From NCBI GenBank assembly GCA_903908605.1, contig CAIVSQ010000303.1, positions 1 through 33,501 of the forward strand: a DNA stretch of 33,501 nucleotides, written 5' to 3'. Below, in pieces: positions 1 through 13,473 of this stretch. The notes below the pieces were generated by a model. It saw nothing but the letters and a program-made list of their open reading frames with translations, did no database searches and was not told where the DNA came from. The stretch comes from an uncultured Anaerolineae bacterium (GTDB lineage: Bacteria; Chloroflexota; Anaerolineae; Anaerolineales; Villigracilaceae). Positions within the stretch are counted from its first letter, which is position 1. Each line of letters opens with the position of its first letter. Both the position numbers and the translations under genes were made by a program.

Positions 1-1
1 C

Positions 2-109
2 AGTGACTTTCAATCCGCCTTGGAACCAACCCCCATCCCAATGGAAGAGGGCTTCTTCAAGGAAATAAAAGAAGCGCCACAACCGGCACTTCACAAAATG
101 ATCAGGTAA
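2..109 (+). CDS. C-terminal end of an unidentified protein (partial)
   Basis: Frame 2 is open from the window edge to a TAA at 107-109 and gives a 35-residue tail with an acidic, Pro-rich stretch and a basic end (HKMIR). A strong hairpin terminator begins three bases after the stop, which is what would be expected at the end of a real plus-strand gene. No domain can be recognised from such a short fragment, and the gene start lies outside the window. Frame 3 also stays open for about 65 bases but does not end beside the terminator, so it is the weaker choice. Confidence 0.4.
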   Translation, partial: SDFQSALEPTPIPMEEGFFKEIKEAPQPALHKMIR

Positions 110-111
110 TC

Positions 112-147
112 AAAAAAGGAGCTCCCAAATGCGGGGGCTCCTTTTTT
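112..147. terminator. Bidirectional intrinsic terminator
   Basis: An A-run and GGAGCTCCC are mirrored by GGGGGCTCC and a T-run, giving a 15-bp arm with one mismatch and a six-base loop. Read in either direction the stem ends in a U-tract. It separates the plus-strand partial gene from the end of pyrD on the minus strand and probably stops both transcripts. Confidence 0.85.
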
Positions 148-154
148 GTTGATG

Positions 155-1240
155 CTAGATGGCTTTTACAATCTGTTTCACCAGGCCGGGTCCGGCGTAA
201 ATCAATCCGGTATAAACCTGCACAAGACTGGCGCCCAGTTCCATTTTTCGGCGGGCATCTACAGCGCTCATTATGCCACCCACGCCAACGACAGGGATAC
301 GTCCATCCACCAGTTTGACCACTTTTTTGAGCACTTCATCGCTCAGGTGTGTTAGTGGTCTGCCGCTCAACCCACCGGCTTCATCCTGCTGCGGTGAGCG
401 CAAACCCGACCTATCCAGGGTTGTATTGGTGGCAATCACGCCATCCATGCCGGTTTCAATAATGACGCCAACAGCGTCTTCCAACTCCTGATCAGATAAA
501 TCGGGAGCGAGCTTAACCAATAATGGTAGGCGTTTTTTGAGGCGGGTTTGTTCAAGCAGGCGCTGGGCGTGCAGATGCCTCAATAATCCCTGCAAAGCAT
601 CTCGTCCCTGCAAACTGCGCAACCCCACAGTATTGGGTGAACTGACATTGATCGTCAGGTAATCCGCCAGGGATGCATAATTTTGAAGCAGGGCAAGGTA
701 ATCGTAGACTGCCTCTTCATTGGGAGTATCCTTGTTTTTTCCAAGGTTAACGCCCAGCACAGTTCCCAAAGGCCTGGCTTTTTTTGGGTTCCTCGTTGTT
801 GGAAAGCCGAGCAGCCATTCAATTACACCAGCTGCCAGGGCGGGGTTGAGCTGTATCTGCACAAATTCGGTGCCTCGGCTGGGGAAACCCATCCGATTAA
901 TAACGGCTTCGTCTTCTACCAGGCGATAAACTCGTGGTTTGGGATTGCCAGGCTGTGGCCGCGGAGTGACTGTACCAATTTCAATATGCCCAAAGCCCAA
1001 GGCTGCCAGGCCACGCAGCGCAGTACCATCTTTATCATATCCTGCCGCCAGACCAACCGGGTTTCGGAATTTCAACCCAAAAACTTCGACCGGTTTGCGT
1101 GGCCCGGCAAATAATGCCGACAGCAGTTGTGGCCCCAGTGGCAGCCGGCCAACCGTGCCCACCATCTGAAGAGTCAACCCATGCGCCTTTTCTGGGTCGA
1201 GCTTGAATAATTGGTCGCGAAAAAAAGGATACATGCTCAT
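155..1240 (-). CDS. pyrD: Dihydroorotate dehydrogenase, class 2 (quinone)
   Basis: Oxidises dihydroorotate to orotate with FMN, passing electrons to membrane quinone. At 361 aa it has the class 2 layout: an N-terminal helical part (about 1-45) that in this class contacts the membrane and quinone, then the barrel. FMN and substrate motifs visible are AAGYDKDG (65-72), NRMGFPS (115-121), NVSSPNT (198-204), TNTT (271-274), GGLSG (289-293), GVGGI (319-323) and YTGLIY (343-348). The base at the active site is Ser (S201 in NVSSPNT), as in class 2; class 1 enzymes use Cys. It is the last gene of the pyr cluster, 12 bases after the Nudix gene, and ends at the bidirectional terminator. No pyrK partner is seen, consistent with class 2. 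A second ATG two codons inside is an alternative start. Confidence 0.95.
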   Translation of the reverse strand: MSMYPFFRDQLFKLDPEKAHGLTLQMVGTVGRLPLGPQLLSALFAGPRKPVEVFGLKFRNPVGLAAGYDKDGTALRGLAALGFGHIEIGTVTPRPQPGNPKPRVYRLVEDEAVINRMGFPSRGTEFVQIQLNPALAAGVIEWLLGFPTTRNPKKARPLGTVLGVNLGKNKDTPNEEAVYDYLALLQNYASLADYLTINVSSPNTVGLRSLQGRDALQGLLRHLHAQRLLEQTRLKKRLPLLVKLAPDLSDQELEDAVGVIIETGMDGVIATNTTLDRSGLRSPQQDEAGGLSGRPLTHLSDEVLKKVVKLVDGRIPVVGVGGIMSAVDARRKMELGASLVQVYTGLIYAGPGLVKQIVKAI

Positions 1241-1252
1241 CTGGTGGATACC

Positions 1253-1873
1253 TTATTCAAAATACGTAATTCTGGCCATATTTTCATGATGAGCAAAAAC
1301 TTCATCAAGAATACGATTATTGGTACGCGTTTCAGATAGTGGCGGAAGATGATCCCGCTCAAAAAAACCTACTTCCAGGGTTTCCATGCTGGGGGTGGCT
1401 TCTCCGCTCAGGATCGAACAGAGGAAAACCAGCTTATAAGCATGGTAAAACTCGAGCGGTTCCAGCCGATTGCCATCGAAAACCGCTATCAACTTATCAA
1501 CCCTGACGGTGAAACCACTTTCTTCCCAGACTTCGCGAGCCACCATGGCAGCAGGAGCATCACCAATATCGCCCCAGCCTCCCGGCATAGCCCATCGACC
1601 ATCCGCTTTTTCCCTGACTAATAATATTTGTCCATCACGAAAGATAGCACCCCGCACATCCACTTTGGGAGTGGCGTATCCACTTTGCATGGATAAATTC
1701 TTCAGAATATCCTCCGCCTTTAGGTCAGAGTAATTGGAGAGAATTTCGGCGCTGATTTCCTGCAGCCGTTTATAGCGATCAATATCATAATCATTGACGC
1801 TGTACGCCAACCCGGCCTGCGAGAGTGAAAAAATCTCACGCGCCCAACCTAACCAATTCGGAGTATCTGGCAT
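1253..1873 (-). CDS. Nudix hydrolase with N-terminal Nudix_N-type domain
   Basis: A 206-aa protein with a helical N-terminal domain (about 5-65) of the kind found in CDP-choline and ADP-ribose pyrophosphatase-like Nudix enzymes, followed by a Nudix fold. The Nudix box runs from G99 to F121 and ends in a perfect REVWEESGF (113-121). The first Glu of the consensus G-x5-E-x7-REUxEExGU is Asp here (D105), a conservative change. The catalytic REUxEE glutamates are intact, so activity is likely. It sits inside the pyr operon, 15 bases after pyrE and 12 before pyrD, which suggests a nucleotide-linked substrate such as a pyrimidine diphospho-compound. That link is inference; the substrate cannot be read from the sequence. 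Confidence 0.88.
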   Translation of the reverse strand: MPDTPNWLGWAREIFSLSQAGLAYSVNDYDIDRYKRLQEISAEILSNYSDLKAEDILKNLSMQSGYATPKVDVRGAIFRDGQILLVREKADGRWAMPGGWGDIGDAPAAMVAREVWEESGFTVRVDKLIAVFDGNRLEPLEFYHAYKLVFLCSILSGEATPSMETLEVGFFERDHLPPLSETRTNNRILDEVFAHHENMARITYFE

Positions 1874-1888
1874 TCTTTTTGGCTTCCC

Positions 1889-2491
1889 TTAGTTGTTTGC
1901 TAGAAACTCACGTGTTGCCTGGATATAAGCCTGGGATACTTTCCCGGTGGCTTCCCAATGGGCCAACATTTCACTGATGGTTAATACAGAGTGCATCGCG
2001 TATCCGGCTTGTGCCAGCGACTCACGGGCACCCGACTGCCTGTCCACCAGTACAACCACATCCTTTACCACCAGGCCTGCCGCTGTAAGTTTATCGATGG
2101 CCTCAAATTTGCTTCCCCCAGTAGTGGCAAGATCATCGATCACCACCACAATTTCACCCGGGTGGTATTCACCCTCAATCTCGGCCTTGGTTCCATAGGA
2201 CTTGACCTCTTTACGTGGGTAAATAAGCGGATAATCACCTGCCAGGCTAATCGCAGTGGCAATCGGGATGGCAGCATAGGGCAATCCAGCAAGCCTTTTA
2301 AATTCCAGCTTTTCCAATAGTGGTAAATAAGCAGAACCAACTTGCTGAAGCAGCCGCGGGTAGGTAATAATCTGGCGTAAATCGATGTAGATGGGCGATT
2401 TTAAGCCAGATTTGAGCGTGAATTCACCGAACTTGATACATCCGGCCTCTAACAAACCATCCGCTAATAATGCTATTTGGGAATCGGTCAT
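1889..2491 (-). CDS. pyrE: Orotate phosphoribosyltransferase
   Basis: Transfers the phosphoribosyl group of PRPP to orotate, making OMP. At 200 aa it is the normal size. The PRPP-binding signature VVVIDDLATTGGS lies at 115-127, and the catalytic-loop region with Lys and Tyr (PRKEVKSYGT, 92-101) comes before it. The N-terminal segment with FTLKSGLKSPIYIDLR (24-39) is the orotate-side strand typical of the family. It starts 29 bases after pyrF. PyrE and PyrF are separate proteins here, not fused as in the eukaryotic UMP synthase. Confidence 0.95.
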   Translation of the reverse strand: MTDSQIALLADGLLEAGCIKFGEFTLKSGLKSPIYIDLRQIITYPRLLQQVGSAYLPLLEKLEFKRLAGLPYAAIPIATAISLAGDYPLIYPRKEVKSYGTKAEIEGEYHPGEIVVVIDDLATTGGSKFEAIDKLTAAGLVVKDVVVLVDRQSGARESLAQAGYAMHSVLTISEMLAHWEATGKVSQAYIQATREFLANN

Positions 2492-2520
2492 AATTTATGG
2501 CTCCTGTAGACTGGCAACAC

Positions 2521-3336
2521 TCAACCGAGCTGATGTTTGATGGAGATAATCTGGTCACGCAATTCGGCGGCAGCCTGTCCGGGATCAGCCGCACGGGCAA
2601 CACCGCGCGAAACCGGCAGCAGCAGACCCTTGCCATCCTTGCGCAAACCTGCCTTTAGGGCTACTTCCAAATCACCGCCCTGGGCACCCACACCCGGTGC
2701 GAGAAACCAGAGATCAGGTGCAACCTTGCGCACACGTTCCAATGCCTCAGGTTTTGTAGCGCCTACAACCAGTCCAATATTATTGCGCGTATTCCATTTT
2801 TGGGCCATCATTGCCACACGCTCATAGAGCAAATCGCCACCTTCGAGACGCAAATCCTGCAAATCACCCGAACCAGGATTGGATGTTTTGCATAATAAGA
2901 AAACACCTTTCTCCTGGTTGACCAAAAACGGGTCAATCGAGTCCTTACCGAGGTAAGGACTGAGTGTTATGCAGTGTGCCCCCAGTTTGGTAAACGCTGA
3001 TAGAGCATAAGCATCCGCAGTTGAAGCAATATCGCCACGCTTGGCGTCCAGGATGACCGGGATGCGTGATCCCATCCGGTCGGATTCGTACTGGATGGCA
3101 TCAATTACTTCCTTCAGCGCGATCCAACCCTCTGGACCATACTGCTCAAAAAAAGCGGCGTTGGGCTTGAAAGCGGCAGCATATGGGGCAGTCTTTCGAA
3201 CAAGTTTGAGGCTAAAATCCAACGCCGAGGCTGCAGTGGGGGATTCGAGATCCGCACTGTGCGGATCAATCCCAATGCAAAGCAGGGAGGAACAATCATC
3301 AACACGTTTTTCAAGAAAAGAGAAGAAAGTTTCCAT
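2521..3336 (-). CDS. pyrF: Orotidine-5'-phosphate decarboxylase, type 2
   Basis: Decarboxylates OMP to UMP, the last de novo step. The protein is 271 aa, longer than the E. coli-type enzyme, and matches the subfamily 2 layout. GIDPH (22-26), FKPNAAFFEQ (56-65) and the catalytic DAKRGDI (97-103), which holds the Asp-Lys-Asp charge network, are all present. The C-terminal phosphate-binding portion contains APGVGAQGGD and VSRG. It follows pyrB by 14 bases and precedes pyrE by 29, so it is clearly co-transcribed with them. Confidence 0.95.
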   Translation of the reverse strand: METFFSFLEKRVDDCSSLLCIGIDPHSADLESPTAASALDFSLKLVRKTAPYAAAFKPNAAFFEQYGPEGWIALKEVIDAIQYESDRMGSRIPVILDAKRGDIASTADAYALSAFTKLGAHCITLSPYLGKDSIDPFLVNQEKGVFLLCKTSNPGSGDLQDLRLEGGDLLYERVAMMAQKWNTRNNIGLVVGATKPEALERVRKVAPDLWFLAPGVGAQGGDLEVALKAGLRKDGKGLLLPVSRGVARAADPGQAAAELRDQIISIKHQLG

Positions 3337-3350
3337 ATAATCAGTTTGTC

Positions 3351-4331
3351 CTAGGCTTTTCCAAGTACCATGGCCAGCAGGGCCATTCTGACGTACAGAC
3401 CGTATTCCATCTGCCGGAAATACGCAGCGCGCGGATCATCGTCAAAGTCAACGCTGATCTCCCCCACCCTGGGCAGCGGGTGCATGACTATCATTTCCTG
3501 GCGGGCAATCTTCATCACATCGGGGTCAACCACAAAGGCTCCTTTAACGCTTTCGTAAATCGCCTGATCCTCGAACCGTTCTTTCTGAACCCGTGTAACA
3601 TACAACACATCCGTTTCGGGCAGTACCTGCTCGAGGCTGGTAAATTCGGCCTGAGGAATGCCTTTTTCGCCAACTTCTTCCATCACCTCCCTGGGCATTC
3701 GCAAAATATCAGGGGAGACGTAATTCAGCTTGATACCGCTGAAGTTAGAAAGCAGGCGTGCCAGCGAATGAACCGTGCGCCCATATTTCAAATCACCGAG
3801 CATGGTAATCGTCAGGTTATCGAGACGCCCCAATTCTTCCATAATGGTGAAGGCATCCAGCAAGGCCTGGGTGGGATGCTCGCCAACACCATCGCCCGCG
3901 TTGATAACAGGCTTACGCGCATATTTTGCCGCCAGGGCGGCAGAACCAGTTTCGGGATGGCGCAGCACAATGACATCCGCATAGCATTCAAGCGTTCGAA
4001 CAGTATCGGGTAAGCTTTCGCCCTTCGATACCGAGGAATATTTCACTTCACTGATCGGAATGACACTGCCACCCAGTCGTTCCATGGCGGCGGTGAAGGA
4101 TGACGAGGTACGCGTGGAAGGTTCATAGAACAGATTTGCGAGGATCTTACCTTTCAACAAGTCAAAGGTACCCACGCGTTCAACCATTCCGCGCATTTCA
4201 TGCGCCACGCCAAAAACGTAACGAAGATCATCGTGACTGAATTGTTTGACGGAAAGGATATCTTTGCCGTACCAGGGCGCATTTTTATCATCGCCAAACG
4301 GCAAGTGGGGATTGGTGGGGGTAGTTGGCAT
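3351..4331 (-). CDS. pyrB: Aspartate carbamoyltransferase catalytic subunit
   Basis: Condenses carbamoyl phosphate with aspartate to carbamoyl-aspartate. I start it at the ATG at 4331, giving 326 aa. This ATG has AAGGAGAG eight or so bases upstream, while the longer open frame begins at a TTG with no ribosome-binding site and adds 29 unconserved residues. The carbamoyl phosphate motif [11 protein letters not shown] (69-79), the mobile-loop K103-[11 protein letters not shown] (152-159) and the HPLPRVGEI motif near the C-terminus are intact. No pyrI regulatory gene is present, so allosteric control by PyrI is not expected from this locus. A 185-base gap with its own candidate promoter separates it from pyrC. 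Confidence 0.95.
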
Positions 4332-4421
4332 GAGTCTCTCCTTTTTTTCTAAATAGTTCATCCGGATAATAAACCGCTCTGTGGTACCTGGTTCGCACCC
4401 TGGCAGCAGCGGCGACAATTT

Positions 4422-4451
4422 TTTATAGAATGATCACTTTTTTATATACAA
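4422..4451 (-). promoter_or_regulatory. Candidate internal promoter for pyrB
   Basis: On the minus strand, TTGTAT (4446-4451) and TATAAA (4422-4427) are separated by 18 bases, giving an untranslated leader of about 85 bases before pyrB. The surrounding 185-base gap is AT-rich near pyrC. No clear terminator follows pyrC, so read-through from upstream and new initiation here are both possible. No PyrR-type binding loop is recognisable in this leader. Confidence 0.45.
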
Positions 4452-4516
4452 CGATCGGCTGATGATAATCATCCAGCAAACCGAATAAAAAAATAATAAT
4501 GGATGTTACATGAATA

Positions 4517-5614
4517 TTAATCCCAATCAACTTCTCGTACATTTTTTCCAAAACCAGGCTGCACAAGAATTTTGCCATCCTTGAACGCTTCAGTACCACG
4601 CAAAACAACCCTGGTTACCCGGCCTCTCACCTTCCAACCTTCGAAGGGAGTCCAACCGCAGCGTGAATGCATCTCTGCTGCGTGTAATTCATAGACAGCA
4701 TTTTCGTCCACTTCAACCCAGGTTTCATGCTGAACCGGTAGTTTGAAAATTCTCCTTGGATTGGTTACTGCCTTTTCAACCAACTGTTCCATCGTCAGCC
4801 GCCCTTCTTGAACGGCAGTCAACAGCAAAGGCAGCAAACTTTCCAGACCAGGAAAACCGGGCGGAGGATTTTCGCTATCCTTTTCGGGCACGGTATGGGG
4901 TGCATGATCGGTTGCAAAACAATCAATCACATCCAGATTCTCCCAAAGTGCTGCGGCATCCTGCGCGGTTGCCAGGCGTGGACGTACCTCAGCTCGACCA
5001 CCACTCAACCCTTCAGTACAACAAGCCCCCGATGTGGAAAGTGGTATTCCACCTTCGGATAGAAATAAATGGTGCGGACAAACTTCACAGGTGACCCGAA
5101 TGCCATGTTCCTTGGCCGCTTTGATCAACAATACCTCTTCGCGCAAGGAAATATGTGCAATATGAATGGGTTTATTATACATTTGCGCCATTAATAATGC
5201 AGCGCCCATCGAACGACTCTCAGAATGGGTCACAATGGGCGTATCGCCAGGCCAGCGCATGAAATGCTCCATCCACAAGGTCATATCATCCAGACGAAGC
5301 TGGCCAAAGGTGGCATCCAGGTACATTTTTAGTGCGGCCGCACGGGGCGCCAGGGCTGCAGCGACAGTTGCATTATCGGCACCAGCTCCCACATATTGGG
5401 CATAATCACAGCGCGCCTTTTGCTGGGCTGAGTTAAGTACACTATCCAGCGTATCGGCATCAAAAATAGGGGGTTTCGTGTTGGGCATGGCCAATACCAT
5501 CGTCACACCACCCGCCAGCGCAGAGGCAGTACCGCTGTCATAATCTTCCTTGTGAACTGCGCCTGGTTCACGCAAGTGGACATGTGGATCAATCAAGCCA
5601 GGTAAACGAATCAT
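4517..5614 (-). CDS. pyrC: Dihydroorotase of the CAD type
   Basis: Cyclises carbamoyl-aspartate to dihydroorotate in an amidohydrolase barrel. The 365-aa protein closely resembles the dihydroorotase domain of animal CAD, from RLPGLIDPHVHLREPG at the N-terminus through PPPGFPGLESLLPLLLTAV to NPRRIF. Metal ligands are H11, H13, carboxylated K96, H130, H154 and D236, with spacings matching CAD up to E177. The CAD mobile-loop Thr-Phe pair is present at T102-F103. Differences are a roughly 10-residue insertion around 187-210 (Ser/Gly/Cys-rich) and Ala at 153 where CAD has a Cys bound to its third zinc. In-frame sequence upstream of the ATG has no other usual start before a stop codon, so the short N-terminus is genuine. 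It follows uraA by 171 bases. Confidence 0.93.
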   Translation of the reverse strand: MIRLPGLIDPHVHLREPGAVHKEDYDSGTASALAGGVTMVLAMPNTKPPIFDADTLDSVLNSAQQKARCDYAQYVGAGADNATVAAALAPRAAALKMYLDATFGQLRLDDMTLWMEHFMRWPGDTPIVTHSESRSMGAALLMAQMYNKPIHIAHISLREEVLLIKAAKEHGIRVTCEVCPHHLFLSEGGIPLSTSGACCTEGLSGGRAEVRPRLATAQDAAALWENLDVIDCFATDHAPHTVPEKDSENPPPGFPGLESLLPLLLTAVQEGRLTMEQLVEKAVTNPRRIFKLPVQHETWVEVDENAVYELHAAEMHSRCGWTPFEGWKVRGRVTRVVLRGTEAFKDGKILVQPGFGKNVREVDWD

Positions 5615-5722
5615 TTTGCCAATTACTCCATCTTCGAGGTAAAAACCACAACGCCTTATCTTTATCTACAATTCTCGTGCGAGCTATCCCAGGCATAACC
5701 GGTTTATTCGGGCACATGGAAA

Positions 5723-5754
5723 GGGGATTGGGTACGGAAACCGTCCCAATCCCC
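5723..5754 (-). terminator. Strong hairpin between uraA and pyrC
   Basis: GGGGATTGGG pairs with CCCAATCCCC, extended by ACGG/CCGT across one bulged A, giving a 14-bp stem with a three-base loop. In the minus direction it is followed only by TTTCC, not by a long U-tract. It may be a partial terminator, an RNA-stability element that separates uraA and pyrC levels, or a regulated attenuator. The sequence alone does not decide between these. Confidence 0.55.
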
Positions 5755-5785
5755 AGTATACAACTATCAATCGATTTCGCGGTAC

Positions 5786-7192
5786 TTATGCCTTCGAAGC
5801 TTCTGGGGCCTTGAACACCAGGAAAATTGTATTGATCAAAATGCCAAGGAACGCAGCAAAAACAATCGCCGGAATACCGTTCGGGAACAGGAAGGGCACC
5901 TGGAAGGGAAACATGCCATCTTTGAGAGACAGGTTACCACCGATACCACAAACCAGAATAACGGAACCAACAGCCAGCTGCTTCGGGTCAAACAAGTTGA
6001 CCTTTTCAGATTGAAGCAAAGCAATACCTTGCATGCCAATCACACCAAAGAGGTAAATACTCAGCCCACCGACCACAGCGGCCGGAATGGTATTGACCAG
6101 GGCCACCAGCTTGCCAAAGAAACCAAATACAATCGCCATGGCTCCAGCGGTCATCAACACCGAGGTCGAATAATTACGAGTAATCGCCATCAGGGAATTA
6201 TTCTCACCATAATTGGTACCGGCGCAGCCACCCAGGAAACCAACAACCAAGTCATCAGCACCATCAGCCACCAGGTTGAGGCCAATCAATTCCTTAATGT
6301 TATAAGGCTTGCGCTTCATTTCATGGGCAAGTTCATCAATGTACAGGCTCATCTGGTAAAGGTGAGCGGTGCTCTCTGGCACTGTCGCAATGAAAATCAA
6401 AGCGATGCTCAGGGCCATGCCCCATGCGGCAGGATTGTTAAAGGCGGGGAAGGTAAATTTGGGCAGCGCAACCCAGGCAGCGGACGCTACATTGTTGAAA
6501 TTTACCAGGCCGGCAAAGTACGCCACAATATAACCTGCGATGGCGCCGAATAAGATCGGCAGCATCCCAATCAGGCCCTTGCCCTGCAAATAAACTGAGA
6601 ACAGGATGGTCGCGATCAGTGTAAAGAATGCAACGCCCCAGGATGTGGCGGCAAGTTCGGGAGCTGCCCAGTTACCTGCATTTCCGAGGGCGGCATTGGC
6701 CAGGGCAATACCGATCACAATGGCCATCGAACCAGTCACAATGGGAGGAAGTACACGATCCAGGGCGGCCTTCCCCAGGCGCATGATCAGGAAGCCAATC
6801 AGGATTTCAAACACAGCCGTCAAAATAATACCGACCTGCACAATTTGAACACCTTCAGGGCAGTATACAGCTGCAGAATTGAAGCAGTCCGGTGCAAATT
6901 TACTCATCACCGTAATAATGACGGCGATGTACGAAAAAGAGGAGCCGTAGTACATTGGGATTTTGCGCTGGGAGACCAACAATGCAATGATGGTACCCAA
7001 ACCAGAAGCGAGCAGCGTGATGCCAACATCGAACTTGGTCAGGATGGCAACCAGTGCCGTGGCGGGAAACATCGTCAGGAATTGTTGAAAACCAAGGCTC
7101 AGCATGGCACCAATGGGTGGGGTATCATCAGGAAGAAACCCGATGAGTTTGCCCTGACGGGCGGCACTTGCAGAATTGTTTTTCGCTGCCAT
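5786..7192 (-). CDS. uraA: Uracil permease, NCS2 family
   Basis: Imports uracil across the inner membrane, probably in symport with protons. The ATG at 7192 (468 aa) is chosen because GGAGGAG lies directly upstream; the longer frame begins at a TTG six codons earlier within that Shine-Dalgarno region. The protein is hydrophobic throughout with the many membrane segments expected of NCS2 carriers. Family landmarks include the N-terminal GFLPDDTPPIGAMLSLGFQQ-like opening, the SFSYIA strand, ATVPESTAHL and a GGCAGTNYGENNSLMAITRNYS stretch that carries the NCS2 Asn-Tyr-Gly-Glu-Asn signature. As first gene of the pyr cluster it couples salvage uptake with de novo synthesis. It is preceded by a leader with an attenuator-like terminator. 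Confidence 0.92.
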   Translation of the reverse strand: MAAKNNSASAARQGKLIGFLPDDTPPIGAMLSLGFQQFLTMFPATALVAILTKFDVGITLLASGLGTIIALLVSQRKIPMYYGSSFSYIAVIITVMSKFAPDCFNSAAVYCPEGVQIVQVGIILTAVFEILIGFLIMRLGKAALDRVLPPIVTGSMAIVIGIALANAALGNAGNWAAPELAATSWGVAFFTLIATILFSVYLQGKGLIGMLPILFGAIAGYIVAYFAGLVNFNNVASAAWVALPKFTFPAFNNPAAWGMALSIALIFIATVPESTAHLYQMSLYIDELAHEMKRKPYNIKELIGLNLVADGADDLVVGFLGGCAGTNYGENNSLMAITRNYSTSVLMTAGAMAIVFGFFGKLVALVNTIPAAVVGGLSIYLFGVIGMQGIALLQSEKVNLFDPKQLAVGSVILVCGIGGNLSLKDGMFPFQVPFLFPNGIPAIVFAAFLGILINTIFLVFKAPEASKA

Positions 7193-7267
7193 TTCTCCTC
7201 CGTAAAACAAAAAAATAAATTAGGCTCGACCGTTCCAGCTTTCCTCGCTCAAGCAGGACACAGGCAT

Positions 7268-7299
7268 AAAAAAAGAGCCGCCCAAAAGCGACTCTCCTT
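7268..7299 (-). terminator. Intrinsic terminator (candidate attenuator) in the uraA leader
   Basis: On the minus strand GAGTCGC (7288-7294) pairs with GCGGCTC (7275-7281) around a TTTTGG loop with one G-U pair. The stem extends by A-U and G-U pairs to 7299, and seven T follow the core (7268-7274). It lies downstream of a strong promoter and about 75 bases before the uraA start, with the leader frame's stop codon touching its base. It could also catch transcripts arriving from ftsK and the kinase-like gene, which have no other terminator. Confidence 0.8.
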
Positions 7300-7380
7300 C
7301 TATTTCAAAAATAATGAAACACCAATCCCGCTAAGTTTGTGACGTGCAAAAAGATAAAAACAAGCGGAATATTTACACAT
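7300..7380 (-). CDS. Candidate uraA leader peptide (26 aa)
   Basis: An ATG at 7380 opens a 26-codon frame reading MCKYSACFYLFARHKLSGIG followed by VSLFLK and a TAG at 7300-7302. It includes a U-rich run (TGTTTTTATCTTTTT, 7348-7362). A possible pause hairpin forms between 7363-7370 and 7325-7332. The ATG is only 10 bases downstream of the promoter -10 box, so the transcript would be nearly leaderless, with no Shine-Dalgarno. A ribosome reaching the stop codon would cover the left arm of the terminator. These features match the logic of the enterobacterial pyrBI leader, but similarity of sequence is not claimed, and translation is unproven. Confidence 0.45.
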   Translation of the reverse strand: MCKYSACFYLFARHKLSGIGVSLFLK

Positions 7381-7390
7381 ATTGCACGCA

Positions 7391-7418
7391 ATTCTATTCG
7401 AAATGAAGTTCCTGTCAA
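7391..7418 (-). promoter_or_regulatory. Sigma-70-type promoter of uraA-pyr
   Basis: A consensus TTGACA (7413-7418) is 16 bases from TAGAAT (7391-7396) on the minus strand. It is the best promoter match in the window. The expected RNA start near 7384 leaves about 190 bases of leader before uraA. It lies after the end of the kinase-like gene and before the terminator, which argues that the terminator is regulatory and not merely the end of the upstream operon. Confidence 0.75.
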
Positions 7419-7510
7419 GAGTGAAAAACATTGTGTTAGCGCCAAGTAGAAATACCCCTTTTTAATGGGAGCAAAAATGAACGAACTACCCACAATGAGG
7501 GAAAAAGAAA

Positions 7511-8143
7511 TCACTCGCCCATGTACAAACCACCTGTTTGCTCCATCCAGTCGGCTATTTTCTCAACAGCCCCAGCTATATCATTATCCGAGATATCCAC
7601 TTCAAATTTGAGCAGGCTTGATTCAGAAACCAGCCGCCTGATCAATGTTTGTTCCTCAACAAAACGATTGAGATCGTTATACTGTCCAGGGTTGCCGGAA
7701 ACTTTTAACCGTTCGGCACGGGCATCGGCAAATGAATCTGGGGTACGGTTGAGAAAAACCATCCGAAATCCCAATGGGACCAATCTCTGTTCCAACCAGC
7801 GAAAATCGTAATCTCGTTGGTAGGTCATCCACTGGTAAGCACGGGTGGAAATGTGGAAACGGTCAATAACCCAGGAATAATATTTTTGCAACTCGAACAA
7901 CCGCATCCAAGTATGGTACGTCTCCATCGCCTGGGCTTCTTCATCGGGCTCAAAGTTGATCAGCCCCCTACCCCATGGAAAGTTGGTAAACGAGCACCAT
8001 TCAGCCGAAATAAGCGGTGAATGGTAGCGATAGCGGCGCGGTCCAACCACACGTGGATGTTCGTTCAAGGCGAAAGCAATATCTGTCTTGAATGTCAGGC
8101 GCGTACCTTCCAGAATTATTTTTGGACATAATTTTGAACCCAT
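7511..8143 (-). CDS. Nucleoside/nucleotide kinase-like protein with degenerate P-loop
   Basis: A 210-aa protein whose start at 8143 has AGAGG upstream and lies 10 bases after the ftsK stop; the longer frame merely overlaps ftsK. The fold cues are those of deoxynucleoside or thymidylate kinases: an opening KIILEG strand, a DR-F-H-x-S-x-R-A-Y-Q segment (94-103) like the DRY/DRF motif of thymidylate kinases, and a later LNRTPDSFADARAERL (131-146) lid-like stretch. The Walker A position reads GTRLTFKT (13-20), in which the invariant second Gly is Phe, though Lys-Thr remain. Activity is therefore uncertain. It is probably co-transcribed with ftsK and lies next to, but outside, the pyr operon. I do not recognise a characterised family. 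Confidence 0.7.
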   Translation of the reverse strand: MGSKLCPKIILEGTRLTFKTDIAFALNEHPRVVGPRRYRYHSPLISAEWCSFTNFPWGRGLINFEPDEEAQAMETYHTWMRLFELQKYYSWVIDRFHISTRAYQWMTYQRDYDFRWLEQRLVPLGFRMVFLNRTPDSFADARAERLKVSGNPGQYNDLNRFVEEQTLIRRLVSESSLLKFEVDISDNDIAGAVEKIADWMEQTGGLYMGE

Positions 8144-8153
8144 ACCAGCCTCT

Positions 8154-10517
8154 TTACGAATCTTTTGGTGGGGCGGCTGGTCCATAATCCAACACGGGGC
8201 GCACACCAGTATTGTCCTGTGGGGTACCAATAATTTTCTTTTCTTCCATGGTATCAATTAACCGTGAAGCCCGCGTATAACCTATACGCAATTTACGCTG
8301 CAACATGGATACCGAAGCCCGCCCTTCACGACGTACCAAATCCACCGCTTCAGACATCAACACATCCCCTTCCTCAGCCTTGGCAGCGATATCCTCGCCA
8401 AAGAAAGAGGTTTGCTTGAGCGGCACGTTGGAAGGCAGACCATCCACCGGCCCTCCAGCCGGATCGGCTGTCGAAAGCGTGTTCTGTTTCTGCCAAAAAT
8501 CCACCAGGCTGTGAATCTCATGGTCAGAAACAAACACACCTTGCAGGCGAACCGGGGCAGGCGCATCAGGCGCCTGGTAAAGCATATCTCCACGCCCGAG
8601 TAAACGTTCAGCGCCTGGTTGGTCCAAAATGACACGGCTATCGGTATTCGAAGATACCGCAAACGCGATGCGCGCAGGGAAATTTGCCTTAATAAGACCG
8701 GTGACCACATCAACCGATGGACGCTGTGTGGCAAGAACCATGTGAATACCTGTTGCACGCGCCAACTGCGCCAGGCGCGTGATGGTCTTTTCGGTTTCAT
8801 CAGGTGCAATCATCATCAAATCAGCCAATTCATCGATGACGATCACCAGGTATGGCAGCTTCTTGTGCCCCTGGGCTTTCATTTTGGTATTGAAATCGAC
8901 AATATTTCTCGCACCCGCCTGAGCAAAGGTATGATAACGACGATCCATCTCGCGCGTCATCCACTGCAACGCACCCAGAACACGATCCATCTCAACCACC
9001 ACCGGCGCTAATAAGTGAGGGATGTTGTTATAGCCCGTCAATTCCACACGCTTGGGATCAACAAGCACCATTCGCACTTCATCTGGGGTATTGTAGAGAA
9101 GTAAACTTGTCAGAATTGAGTTTACACAGACTGATTTACCCGAACCAGTCGTACCCGCAATCAATAAATGCGGCATCGAAGCCAGGTCCGCGCCAATCGG
9201 TCCGCCAGCAACATCACGTCCCAGGGCGAAGGATAGCAATTTTCGGTTTCTGTTAAAACTCTCTTCTTCAAGAATATCACGCAGGGTGACCAGAGACATT
9301 TCACTATTGGGCACTTCAATGCCAACATAACTACGACCTGGAACCGGTGCCTGGATGCGTATTCGCGGCGCTGCCAGGGCTAGAGCGAGATCATCCGACA
9401 GGCTGACAATTTTACTCACCCGGACACGAGTGCGCCCACCGCGTGATTCAACAAATCCCGGTTCAACTCCGAATTGGGTAATGGTAGGACCTCGGCTGGT
9501 GTGCACAACCTTGACTGGTGCCCCAAACGATAATAGCGTTTCTTCAATTAACTGCGCCCGCGATTCAACAAATTCCTGGTTGACCTCCGGAGCACTGCCG
9601 GTTTCAAGGGTTTCCTTAATGGAAGGCAACACCCACGCAACCTGTTTCAATGGCGTTGAAACCGGAATACCGATATCCGCCGCTACAACAACAGGGCGCT
9701 TTTCAGCTATCTCGGGAATACCTGGTTGAATTGGCTTATAACCATCCTGTGCAAAACCTGGTTCACCTTCATCTTCTTGCGCAGGACCTCTCAATCGATC
9801 AGCCAGCCTGTTTATCAGAACCGCAAAAACTACAAAAAGAGGCCGTAGCTTGGCTGCCAACTCAGGCAGGCTAATATCAAAAGACATGGTCAGGACGATC
9901 AGACCCCAGGCAACCAGGGCAACCAGCATACCACCCCAACCAAGATTTTCATTTAAAATGCGGAAAAATAAATTTCCAAGCCAGCCACCTTTTTCAGTTA
10001 TTACCTGAATGACGGTTTGCATAAAAAGGAACAGTAACAATAACCCTGAAACACGCTCCACCGAAACAGGTGGAATACGGTCAATTTTCCTCAGAACCAA
10101 CCAGCCGCCAAAAAGAATCAAGGCCACCGGCAAAATATATGCGCCAAGTCCCAGCAAATAATCCAGCGCTTTCAATACCGCCCCTGTAATGGAACTACGA
10201 CTTAACGAAAACAATGCCAGGGCAAGGACAACCCCAGACAGTGACAGGACAATCCCCAGGATGTCCAGTTTTCGCTCATCAGATATTTCAATCAACGGTG
10301 GCAGGGGTGGAGGAGGTGGCGCGGGTTTTCGCCCAACCGGGGCAGTTGACCTGGCAGGTGCAAGAGCGGGTTTCGCCACAGGCTTTGAGGCGGGCTTTGA
10401 GACCGGCTTTTTATCATCCTTACGTGACAGGCTTTTCTCTTCTTTTCTGGGCCCGGATGATTTCCCTTTGCCTCGCGCAGGCTGGGATGGCTTGATGAAA
10501 GGTAATTTTAGTGGCAT
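8154..10517 (-). CDS. ftsK: DNA translocase FtsK/SpoIIIE
   Basis: A septum-located hexameric ATPase that pumps DNA to clear chromosomes from the closing division site. The 787 aa comprise a basic, Pro/Lys/Ala-rich head (10-75), about four membrane segments (86-106, 117-142, 157-175, 192-212), a short linker, and the motor. Walker A is GTTGSGKS (455-462) and Walker B LVIVIDELAD (557-566). The C-terminal winged-helix gamma domain (about 715-775) that reads KOPS-like sites is present (SMLQRKLRIGYTRASRLID). Unlike E. coli FtsK the linker is short, as in SpoIIIE. No convincing Shine-Dalgarno precedes the ATG. An extended -10 promoter lies 43 bases upstream. Confidence 0.95.
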   Translation of the reverse strand: MPLKLPFIKPSQPARGKGKSSGPRKEEKSLSRKDDKKPVSKPASKPVAKPALAPARSTAPVGRKPAPPPPPLPPLIEISDERKLDILGIVLSLSGVVLALALFSLSRSSITGAVLKALDYLLGLGAYILPVALILFGGWLVLRKIDRIPPVSVERVSGLLLLFLFMQTVIQVITEKGGWLGNLFFRILNENLGWGGMLVALVAWGLIVLTMSFDISLPELAAKLRPLFVVFAVLINRLADRLRGPAQEDEGEPGFAQDGYKPIQPGIPEIAEKRPVVVAADIGIPVSTPLKQVAWVLPSIKETLETGSAPEVNQEFVESRAQLIEETLLSFGAPVKVVHTSRGPTITQFGVEPGFVESRGGRTRVRVSKIVSLSDDLALALAAPRIRIQAPVPGRSYVGIEVPNSEMSLVTLRDILEEESFNRNRKLLSFALGRDVAGGPIGADLASMPHLLIAGTTGSGKSVCVNSILTSLLLYNTPDEVRMVLVDPKRVELTGYNNIPHLLAPVVVEMDRVLGALQWMTREMDRRYHTFAQAGARNIVDFNTKMKAQGHKKLPYLVIVIDELADLMMIAPDETEKTITRLAQLARATGIHMVLATQRPSVDVVTGLIKANFPARIAFAVSSNTDSRVILDQPGAERLLGRGDMLYQAPDAPAPVRLQGVFVSDHEIHSLVDFWQKQNTLSTADPAGGPVDGLPSNVPLKQTSFFGEDIAAKAEEGDVLMSEAVDLVRREGRASVSMLQRKLRIGYTRASRLIDTMEEKKIIGTPQDNTGVRPVLDYGPAAPPKDS

Positions 10518-10559
10518 GGGTTCATCGCTTTTCTAATGCAAAAAGTAGAACATATTTTC

Positions 10560-10568
10560 ATTATAGCA
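10560..10568 (-). promoter_or_regulatory. Extended -10 promoter for ftsK
   Basis: TGCTATAAT on the minus strand is a perfect extended -10 element, with no recognisable -35 at 17 bases. It would give a leader of about 36 bases before ftsK. The same nine-base element occurs upstream of the coiled-coil gene at 25096-25104. The rest of the 246-base gap to rnz holds no other feature I can support; TAAAAT near 10697 is a weak -10 for rnz. Confidence 0.6.
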
Positions 10569-10763
10569 TACCCAACCTGGAGCAGGCTGGCGCACTGGGG
10601 CAGGAGAACCAGTGCAAGAAACCGTATTTATTTTACCCGGGGTTTGAGATTGGACCACAAATCGCAAGGCAGCTCAGAGAACCTGTAAAGTTTAGGGTAA
10701 AATAATTCGACTTATTTACTCCGCTATGCACATTGCGGTACATCACAACCCTGAGGACCAACC

Positions 10764-11684
10764 GTGTTTGAAATTCTATTCCTGGGAACATCCGCATCAG
10801 CACCTTCAGCCCGGCGTGGGCTTTCAGCGCAGGTTGTAAAACATGACGAATACCGATTCCTAATCGATTGCGGGGAAGGCACTCAACGCCAGATACTACA
10901 ATCTGGCATCGGATTTAAACAGTTGAATCGCATCCTGCTCACCCATGGTCACCTGGACCATATATTAGGCCTTGGTGGTTTGATGTCCACATTTTTACGT
11001 TGGGAAGCCATTGAAGAACTGGAAATATTTGGTGGAAAAAGCGCGCTGGAACGAGTACGCACATTGATCAACGATGTTGTTCTGCGAGGGACCAACCCTC
11101 CAATGTCGTTGAAATACCGTGAGATTGGACCAGGCATCCTATTTGAGGCCGATGATTTTACAGTGACAGCCTTTCCAGTAACCCACCGCGGCCCTGATTG
11201 CCTGGGATACATGTTCGAGGAAAAAGCGCGCCGTCCCTTCCTGGCGGAAAAGGCCACCGAAATGGGAGTGCCCTTTGGCCCGGAAAGACGCCTGTTAGTC
11301 AATGGCGAATCCATCACCCTGGCCAATGGCCAAACAATCGGACCAGAAGATGTATTGGGGCCACTCCAAAGAGGTACTCGCCTAATGGTGGTTGGTGATA
11401 CCGGCCGAACGGATGACCTGTTGGTTCACGCCCAGGATGCCGATGCCCTGGTGATCGAATCCACCTATCTCGATGAGGAAGCGGACATGGCTCGCCAGTT
11501 TTCGCACATGACCGCCAAGGGAGCAGCCGACCTGGCCTTGAAAGCCGGTGTCAAGCAATTAATCCTGACCCACATTTCCAGGCGCTACCGCGAAAAAGAT
11601 GTCCTGGCCGAAGCACAATCAGTTTTTCCAAATACAGTCGTGGCACGCGATTTCGACAGCTTCACGGTCAGGCGCGAAGCCTAA
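10764..11684 (+). CDS. rnz: Ribonuclease Z (tRNA 3' endonuclease)
   Basis: Cuts the 3' trailer from pre-tRNAs. At 306 aa it is the short bacterial form. The metallo-beta-lactamase motif HGHLDH is at 61-66, an Asp-containing GDTGRTDD segment follows in the C-terminal half, and the closing THISRRY (269-275) includes the late His ligand. An exosite-type insertion lies around 165-195 (RRLLVNGESITLANG). The start is a GTG with GAGG eight bases upstream, and no ATG gives a full fold. It is monocistronic and ends at a terminator shared with the convergent mutase gene. Confidence 0.93.
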   Translation: MFEILFLGTSASAPSARRGLSAQVVKHDEYRFLIDCGEGTQRQILQSGIGFKQLNRILLTHGHLDHILGLGGLMSTFLRWEAIEELEIFGGKSALERVRTLINDVVLRGTNPPMSLKYREIGPGILFEADDFTVTAFPVTHRGPDCLGYMFEEKARRPFLAEKATEMGVPFGPERRLLVNGESITLANGQTIGPEDVLGPLQRGTRLMVVGDTGRTDDLLVHAQDADALVIESTYLDEEADMARQFSHMTAKGAADLALKAGVKQLILTHISRRYREKDVLAEAQSVFPNTVVARDFDSFTVRREA

Positions 11685-11702
11685 CCAATTACCTTTATTA
11701 AG

Positions 11703-11746
11703 AAAAGGATGGCCAGGCCAAACATCATCGCCCTGCCATCCTTTTT
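11703..11746. terminator. Bidirectional terminator between rnz and the mutase gene
   Basis: AAAAGGATGGCCAGG is mirrored by CCTGCCATCCTTTT with one bulged base and a loop of about 14 bases. T-runs lie on both strands. It serves the convergent ends of rnz and the acyl-CoA mutase gene. Confidence 0.8.
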
Positions 11747-11793
11747 GATTCAAGCAATTGTTCTAAACACCCACAGCAGCAGTCTCTCAGCAG

Positions 11794-13473
11794 CTATATC
11801 CAGGTTGGCTCTGCATAAATACCAAGTTCCTTTTTCATCACGCCAATGATTTCGCCCAGGGTGCAGTAAGCACGCACAGCATCGAGAATAAATGGCATGG
11901 TATTTTCCGTTCCCTGGCATGCGATCCGAAGCCGGTCGAGAGACTGTCCCACGCGGCCTGCATCGCGTGTCCGGCGTACTTCATTTAGTCGGCTCACCTG
12001 ACGTTCATACCCAGTGGGATCCATTACCAGGATCGGCACCGCAGGAGCGCGGCCCTCTGCATACACATTCAACCCAACAATATTGCGTGTCCCTGCGTCA
12101 ATTTCACGCTGGTAGCGATATGCCGCATCCGATATCTCTCCCTGGAAAAAACCACGTTCAATCGCCGGCAAGACACCACCTAAATCAGCAATTCGCTGGA
12201 AATACTCGTAAGCCTGGGCTTCCATCCGGTTGGTTTGCGCTTCCACAAAAAAGGACCCGCCCAAAGGATCGACGGTATGCGTAACCCCAGATTCTTCAGC
12301 GATAATCTGCTGAGTACGCAGCGCAATGGTCACTGCATGTTCTGAGGGCAGCGCAAGGGCTTCATCCAGGCTGTTCGTGTGCAAAGATTGCGTCCCGCCC
12401 AAAACAGCTGCAAGCGCTTGGATGGCGACCCGCACCACGTTATTCTCAGGCTGTTGTGCGGTCAGTGATACTCCGGCCGTCTGCGTATGAAAACGTAGGA
12501 TCCACGAGCGCGGATTTTTTGCGCCAAATGTTTCCTTCATCTCCCGTGCCCAAATACGCCGGGCAGCCCGATATTTGGCGATTTCTTCAAAAAAGTCGTT
12601 ATGCGCGTTAAAGAAAAAGGACAGGCGTGGTGCAAATTCGTCAACATCCATCCCGCGCCGGATTCCCCACCGAACATATTCCATGCCATCGGCCAGGGTA
12701 AACGCCAATTCCTGGGCTGCCGTCGAACCGGCTTCGCGAATATGATAGCCACTGATCGAGATCGTGTTCCACTGCGGTAATTGTTCGGTACCAAACTCGA
12801 TGGTATCTGTCACCAGCCGCATCGAAGGTTCAGGTGGAAAGATGTATTCTTTTTGAGCAATAAATTCTTTAAGAATGTCATTTTGTGTAGTGCCGCGCAG
12901 TTGATCCGGGCGTACGCCCTGCTTCTCAGCAGCAGCAATATACATGGCCCAAATAATGGAAGCCGGGGAATTGATGGTCATACTGGTGGAAACCTGGTCG
13001 AGCGGTATCCCATCCAGTAGAAGTTCCATATCCCGCAAGGATGATATCCCCACGCCACACTTGCCAAACTCGCCCTCGGATTCAGGCGCGTCCGCATCAT
13101 ACCCCATCAGGGTTGGCAGATCAAACGCGATGGAAAGACCTGTCTGACCCTGGCTGAGTAGGTATTTGAAACGTGCATTCGTTTCTTCTGCTGTTCCAAA
13201 ACCGGCAAACATGCGCATGGTCCATAGCTTGCTGCGATGCAAGGTGGCATGCACACCGCGGGTGTACGGATACTCACCCGGCAATCCCAAATCTCGCTCA
13301 TAGTCCAGGTCGGCCACATCGGCCGGAGTATATAACCGGTTGACAGGTTCGGAGGAAGTGGTAATAAAAGTCTCGCGGCGTTCCGGCAGGGATGCCAAGG
13401 ATTTTTTTAACCGGTTGGCTTCCCAATATTTGAGCGAGTTCTGCAGTTCGACAAGCTTTTTTCTATCGTACAT
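11794..13473 (-). CDS. Acyl-CoA mutase large subunit (methylmalonyl-CoA mutase family)
   Basis: The 559-aa protein is the catalytic barrel subunit of a B12-dependent acyl-CoA mutase, without the C-terminal B12-binding domain that single-chain enzymes carry. Recognisable family stretches include [35 protein letters not shown]-like [42 protein letters not shown] and [20 protein letters not shown]. The segment around the substrate-side Tyr of classical methylmalonyl-CoA mutase (RGPY) reads RGVH here, so the substrate (methylmalonyl-, isobutyryl- or another acyl-CoA) is open. No small subunit, MeaB-type GTPase or epimerase gene is adjacent. GAGGAG five bases before the ATG fixes the start. Confidence 0.88.

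Follow-up and report, generated by a model that had tools for sequence, protein, structure and literature searches.

Attenuation of pyrimidine (pyr) operons is usually exerted by the protein PyrR, and in the Bacillus type a terminator lies before the pyr genes. The pyrBI and pyrE operons of E. coli have a U-rich leader and no repressor protein; the leader peptide pyrL is translated from a Shine–Dalgarno (SD) start, a feature that this type of attenuation perhaps does not require. Mycobacterial cysteine leaders reportedly use a leaderless short open reading frame (ORF) as an attenuator, in work attributed to Canestrari in 2020. In E. coli, coupling between ribosome and polymerase suppresses the terminator of pyrBI and pyrE (PMC4824070, PMC5021804). 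PMC4824070 states that in E. coli a ribosome represses a terminator located several bp past the stop codon, that a large stop–terminator distance (>27 nt in that system) gives no repression, and that in pyrBI the effect of distance is steep, with no repression of the terminator while UTP is normal. In C. glutamicum ilvBNC, the transcription start and the leader ATG are about one nt apart (PMC11857589).

Here we analysed a pyrimidine locus in the window, by which we mean the whole 33,501-nucleotide stretch of DNA from an uncultured Anaerolineae bacterium. A promoter, an ATG, a 26-codon frame, its TAG stop codon and a terminator with T7 all lie inside 151 bases of the minus strand and are followed by pyr genes, as listed below in the direction of transcription.

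7391–7418, minus strand: promoter TTGACA-16-TAGAAT (TTGACA 7418–7413, spacer 16 nt, TAGAAT 7396–7391)
about 7380–7384, minus strand: expected RNA 5′ end, predicted by geometry from the −10 box
7300–7380, minus strand: leader ORF, 26 codons plus TAG (7302–7300), leaderless or nearly so
7348–7362, minus strand: second T-rich tract (15 bases), its position not kept among relatives
about 7307–7320, minus strand: U-tract at the position conserved in relatives, candidate UTP-sensitive pause region
7268–7300, minus strand: intrinsic terminator serving as the attenuator; stem arms GAGAGTCGC and GCGGCTC around a loop, then T7
5786–7192, minus strand: uraA, NCS2 uracil permease family, SD sequence GGAGGAG at 7195–7201
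4517–5614, minus strand: pyrC, dihydroorotase family
3351–4418, minus strand: pyrB, aspartate carbamoyltransferase (mechanical ORF; likely start ATG 4331–4329)
2521–3336, minus strand: pyrF
1889–2491, minus strand: pyrE
1253–1873, minus strand: gene for a Nudix_N-containing Nudix hydrolase, flanked by pyrE and pyrD
155–1240, minus strand: pyrD, quinone-dependent dihydroorotate dehydrogenase

The promoter scores 11/12, the best among 14 promoter-like sites in a scan of window positions 1–12,000, and the leader ATG (7380–7378) stands 10 nt downstream of the −10 box. Because bacterial transcription starts 6–8 nt past the −10 box, the RNA would begin 0–4 nt upstream of this ATG, giving a predicted 5′ untranslated region of 0–4 nt. 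The frame encodes the peptide MCKYSACFYLFARHKLSGIGVSLFLK. For the terminator the folding energy is −18 kcal/mol (z −5.3), a value that none of 200 shuffled sequences equalled; its extended stem includes part of the leader stop codon, and the minimum-free-energy fold of the leader region retains it intact along with two weaker hairpins. It was absent from a simple terminator scan and was recovered by the fold and by a custom detector; extended A–U pairs that consume the T run are, we think, the likely cause of the miss. The coordinates given in the original prediction for a near-consensus promoter, a 26-codon frame and a stop codon against a terminator are confirmed, as is the placement of uraA and the pyr genes downstream. 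The leaderless start that it proposed is supported by geometry, the ATG lying 8–11 nt past the −10 box in all 78 elements of the family set described below (6–13 nt allowed). Counting against a leaderless reading is the low share of leaderless genes estimated for Chloroflexi in PMC3160421 (4.7%, found in 4 of 12 genomes). No known RNA family reached its gathering score within the window, and sub-threshold matches (U1, Listeria and other sRNAs, L20 leader and others) were set aside as implausible.

The genes after the terminator run uraA–pyrC–pyrB–pyrF–pyrE–nudix–pyrD on the same strand. uraA starts 75 nt past the terminator and has its own SD sequence; its start is most likely the ATG at 7192–7190 behind GGAGGAG, not the mechanical TTG at 7210. 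The promoter scan found no promoter-like site on the minus strand between the terminator and uraA. A long inverted repeat with a short T run (GGGGATTGGG ... CCCAATCCCC; 5723–5754, minus strand) follows the uraA stop and precedes pyrC, and is a possible internal partial terminator.

Relatives of the element were collected from 152 genomes of the window's GTDB family. A UraA search matched 87 of them. Almost every genome that carries a name in the analysis is a MAG, which limits the support for the main reading. Among 49 uraA upstream regions that were read (30 + 19), 37 carry the attenuator block and 12 do not, with less than 150 nt of upstream DNA in two of these 12. A pattern of promoter, ATG and AGAGYCG matched 75 times, in 70 of the 152 genomes and 21 of 26 genera, and its backward control gave 0 matches. 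When the ATG was left out of the pattern, four extra matches and one backward-control match (G119) appeared; by reading, one of the four (L192) is a T-box before a threonyl-tRNA synthetase-like gene, and another, in G033, is near-identical to it in sequence. The ATG requirement dropped no match recognised as a pyr element, indicating that the ATG is a regular part of the element. Of the 82 genomes without an exact match, at least five have variants that the pattern missed (G001, G031, G034, G083 and G133).

The collection comprised 79 distinct elements, or 78 after removal of an argG leader. uraA or pyrC is found downstream of 77 (75 assigned by tblastn, two fetched as uraA upstream regions), and in the remaining one the contig ends first. 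All 78 have a 16-nt spacer and the −10 box TAnAAT; the spacer was fixed at 16 nt in the pattern search, and the collecting script allowed 15–17 nt and also took uraA-seeded loci. The discriminator is GC-rich and similar among elements. From terminator to gene start the median gap is 48 nt (61 of 78 loci with an SD start found), which leaves little space for another promoter, and a weak promoter-like match (9/12) occurs in 5 of the 61 gaps. Three genomes, G055, G056 and G057, have the attenuator twice within a single gene row, ahead of uraA and again ahead of pyrC (L030/L082, L083/L092 and L093/L084).

If a frame counts as open when it meets no stop codon until it is within 9 nt of the stem, the ATG frame is open in 78/78 elements and the other two frames in 33 and 45, and shuffled leaders give an expectation of 31.5. 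After thinning to <65% identity, 20/20 ATG frames are open, with 8.2 expected. The length from ATG to stem falls into all three residues modulo 3 (38, 28 and 12 elements), so that openness is not due to one inherited spacing. The end of the stop codon falls in a zone reaching from 8 nt upstream of the stem to 2 nt into it in 47 of the 78 elements, and in 31 the stop codon lies in or past the hairpin: 18 at +13 to +19, around the loop, and 13 further downstream, one of which continues into pyrC. None stops earlier than 8 nt before the stem, and all 78 stop positions are inside the repressive distance range given in PMC4824070. Leader length ranges from 17 to 53 codons, apart from the one fused to pyrC. 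Substitutions at codon positions 1, 2 and 3 number 197, 197 and 362 over 45 overlapping pairs, and 35, 48 and 84 over 13 disjoint pairs (p = 4e-6). Together, these comparisons show protein-coding constraint on the frame, as expected if selection keeps the leader translatable as far as the terminator; the peptide sequence itself is kept only loosely.

Beyond the family, pyrC was searched in 48 genomes from 14 other families of the order, giving 23 matches over 300 bits. With the partial locus L228 dropped, 22 pyrC loci were judged; weaker matches (L230 and below) were left out, and the other 25 genomes, which gave weaker pyrC matches or none, are outside this count. By script, 17 of the 22 loci have the design (18 with L213, read by eye), among them one with a GTG start and one with its ATG 14 nt past the −10 box. 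L222, which has no start-codon frame at the right distance, fails, as do L223, L227 and L229. The design was found in families f1, f2, f4, f6, f7, f8, f9, f12, f13 and f14 (L195 included). Beyond the order the picture is less certain: the design seems to be present at L244 and L238 and possibly at L246 and L239/L240, and it was not seen at L241–L243 or L245. A pattern scan of GTDB r220 returned 80 matches in 77 stretches, of which 65 were already known and one was a new true match, the element ahead of pyrC–pyrB in the named strain Anaerolinea thermolimosa IMO-1. For the other 14 new matches no pyr gene was detected in the DNA examined around them; by title 13 come from other phyla and one (L128) from Chloroflexi, and by reading the frame runs without a stop as far as the motif in 4 of the 14.

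Both things that the original prediction expected of relatives were borne out in these sets. Start, frame and stop–terminator geometry are conserved (78/78 family elements and 17/22 other-family pyrC loci by script), the case of a terminator conserved without the frame was not encountered, and U-richness before the terminator is kept, wobble positions included. The pyrimidine-rich tract at 7348–7362, which it had singled out, is not the one that is conserved: relatives keep a U-tract 6–20 nt before the stem, here at about 7307–7320, and the tract at 7348–7362 is an extra one of the window genome. Across the 78 elements, U makes up 53–60% of positions −6 to −20 from the stem and 28% of the leader before its last 20 nt. 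The U fraction of the last 20 nt is 0.54 in the leaders and 0.23 in 20-nt windows of the downstream genes, and 67 of the 78 leaders exceed the 95th percentile of these windows. TTT:TTC is 95:31 in the last 8 codons and 60:84 in earlier codons, and GTT:GTC is 60:5 and 15:20, respectively. The preference persists at wobble positions: U is favoured as a nucleotide, which is what a pause sensitive to UTP would call for. In the window's family no stable hairpin precedes the U-tract (mean z −0.02). Among 14 chosen leaders from other families, 8 have z of −1.9 or lower before the U-tract; in these (L207, L210, L212, L213, L214, L216, L224 and L226) a stable hairpin lies directly before the U-tract, within the leader frame, and is either a pause hairpin or a second, tandem terminator.

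We consider it likely that the element is a pyrBI-like, ribosome-coupled attenuator with a leaderless leader peptide, and that it probably senses UTP. Polymerase would initiate at, or a few bases from, the leader ATG, and the leader would be translated by a ribosome that probably binds the 5′ AUG as a 70S particle. At high UTP, polymerase would pass the U-tract, the terminator would form ahead of the ribosome and transcription would stop. At low UTP, polymerase would slow in the U-tract and the ribosome would catch up; at or past the leader stop codon it would cover the left arm of the terminator, giving read-through into uraA and the pyr genes. What the sequences themselves show is the anatomy (promoter, frame, U-tract, terminator and operon) with its conservation, the coding constraint on the leader and, for this family, the lack of PyrR above the cut-off. 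We infer where the RNA begins, that the leader is translated without an SD sequence, that a ribosome blocks the terminator, that polymerase pauses, that UTP is the signal and in which direction control runs.

The same device, in which a ribosome blocks the terminator, could respond to another signal, such as CTP, the charging of a particular tRNA, or the capacity for translation or for leaderless initiation (70S supply, growth rate), and to this we assign a small but appreciable chance. Regulation could act on leaderless initiation directly, and towards its 5′ end the leader is rich in C (0.31), with Arg, Pro and His frequent there. However, the listed leader peptides of the 78-element family set contain no conserved run of a single codon and no pathway codon run of the trp/his/ilv type, and the strongest composition signal is the wobble U just before the terminator, which codon sensing does not need. 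Moreover, the amino-acid leaders compared in PMC4824070 keep >20 bp to the terminator, whereas here the stop lies ≤8 nt before the stem, which sets the element apart from amino-acid attenuators.

The terminator sequence bears on a different explanation. Among the 78 elements there are 57 distinct stem sequences, with the stem core AGAG/CTCT constant in 78/78, partly because the search pattern required it. The pair next to the core is T–G in 49, C–G in 26 and T–A in 3, and five stem positions occur with two Watson–Crick pair types, some of them in one element only. Pairing is kept, yet the AGAGYCG core, to judge from these alignments, is more constant across many genera than the hairpin needs. 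Such constancy, due in part to how the search was built, would suit a regulatory protein or RNA that recognises either the AGAGYCG terminator or the promoter–discriminator (the discriminator is GC-rich and alike between elements), with the short frame incidental. We hold this to be improbable, given that the frame is under coding constraint, that some other families have unrelated hairpins (AGGTGGTGATGGG, GCCGCCCTGTCC, AGCGCCCAAGAG) in the same place with the frame still open, and that no PyrR above the cut-off was found in the family.

PyrR was above the cut-off in 0 of the 152 family genomes, with weak matches in 141; the two weak matches of the window genome are HGPRT (hypoxanthine phosphoribosyltransferases). 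Across the phylum, 208 of 301 sampled Chloroflexota genomes have PyrR above the cut-off. None of the 38 listed genomes of the window's class is among the 208, their best E-values being 2.6e-10 or worse; the phylum listing leaves out two genomes without a match. The PyrR binding loop (RF00515) was not found at gathering score in the window, nor at E up to 5 in positions 7150–7520. As neither PyrR above the cut-off nor an RF00515 match was found, PyrR-mediated attenuation was rejected.

Nascent-peptide arrest of the TnaC type, in which the leader peptide would stall the ribosome in response to a pyrimidine, would draw on the loose C-terminal GxSVFxF seen in a number of members and on the excess of third-position substitutions. 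It is very improbable: relatives differ greatly in the last residues of the peptide (SLFLK, CCLFF, TDFVF, CFCFRK), and their stop positions are shifted by tens of nt. That the locus is a small peptide gene, independent in both promoter and terminator and placed before uraA by chance, is scarcely credible: it does form a complete small transcription unit, but uraA or pyrC is next in 77 of 78 cases, the peptide is not conserved, and in G013, G017, G130 and G131 the uraA homologue lacks the element and pyrC has it.

Other leaders were observed alongside the pyr elements. TTGACA-16-TANNAT-ATG occurs at four sites in the window genome, including the uraA leader and an argG leader; of the sites in this search, L061 is the start of a longer regulator-like gene, and at L058 the custom detector found no terminator. 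In the window genome, L059 (contig C225, about 5299–5530) has a near-consensus promoter, an ATG 10 nt past the −10 box and a frame, MFTSGNLLRTRRPQTSSLREGRGFLCVCAS, with CGT ACA CGT CGT, followed by hairpins with T runs and then an argG-like gene; it looks like a leaderless arginine attenuator. Before an argC-like gene in G190 (family f15), L197 has an ATG 9 nt past the −10 box and a frame, MNTTLFSRRARSTYMTKCLASRVN, with clustered Arg codons and then a terminator, and is a putative second leaderless arginine leader. The names argG-like and argC-like come from reading translations. A different leader stands upstream of the uraA homologues at L012, L013, L048 and L050, where a strong SD sequence (GAGGAGGTG or similar) precedes a start codon that is only a few nt from a GC-rich, T-run hairpin, and the frame crosses the hairpin; here translation initiation itself may block the terminator. 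Before a more distant uraA homologue (L054, L055 and L056), a T-run hairpin is closely followed by GGAGGTGAC and a mini-frame that precedes the gene for the permease; this may be another control element.

It is conceivable, at somewhat less than an even chance, that Anaerolineae lost PyrR and convergently acquired class-wide leaderless pyr attenuators in which ribosome loading on the 5′ AUG is part of the sensor. The leaderless design may serve other Anaerolineae pathways too, for example through arginine leaders at argG and argC. The proposed scheme offers a concrete mechanism of pyrimidine control for a large, mostly uncultured order where PyrR was not found, and suggests that UTP sensing through transcription–translation coupling arose separately from Enterobacteria. 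It would also tie leaderless initiation to the timing of attenuation, in that a ribosome loading on a bare 5′ end would have to catch the polymerase within about 60–85 nt.

Compared with known systems, the element resembles the PyrR type (Bacillus, RF00515) in having a terminator before the pyr genes and differs in that its leader is coding. With E. coli pyrBI (pyrL) and pyrE, as described in PMC4824070 and PMC5021804, it shares a pyrimidine operon and a leader, here predicted to be translated, that reaches an intrinsic terminator. The features that mark the pyrBI/pyrE type, namely an intrinsic terminator before the first pyr gene, a frame reaching it and a U-rich tract, are all present. Unlike that of pyrBI, the leader is predicted to begin at the RNA 5′ end or close to it, and the spacing of 8–11 nt between −10 box and ATG leaves no room for an SD sequence. 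It has 17–53 codons and most often ends just before the hairpin, uraA or pyrC comes first, and in the window's family the U-tract is not preceded by a stable hairpin. Attenuation of pyr genes by coupling is already known, and so are leader peptides that are leaderless (PMC4824070, PMC5021804 and PMC11857589); in open-licence PMC papers we found no description of their combination or of a leader-peptide pyr attenuator in Chloroflexota. The ilvBNC and mycobacterial cysteine leaders are likewise leaderless and sense amino acids via regulatory codons, whereas the element described here has no codon run, its stop codon abuts or overlaps the terminator, and its target is pyrimidine synthesis.
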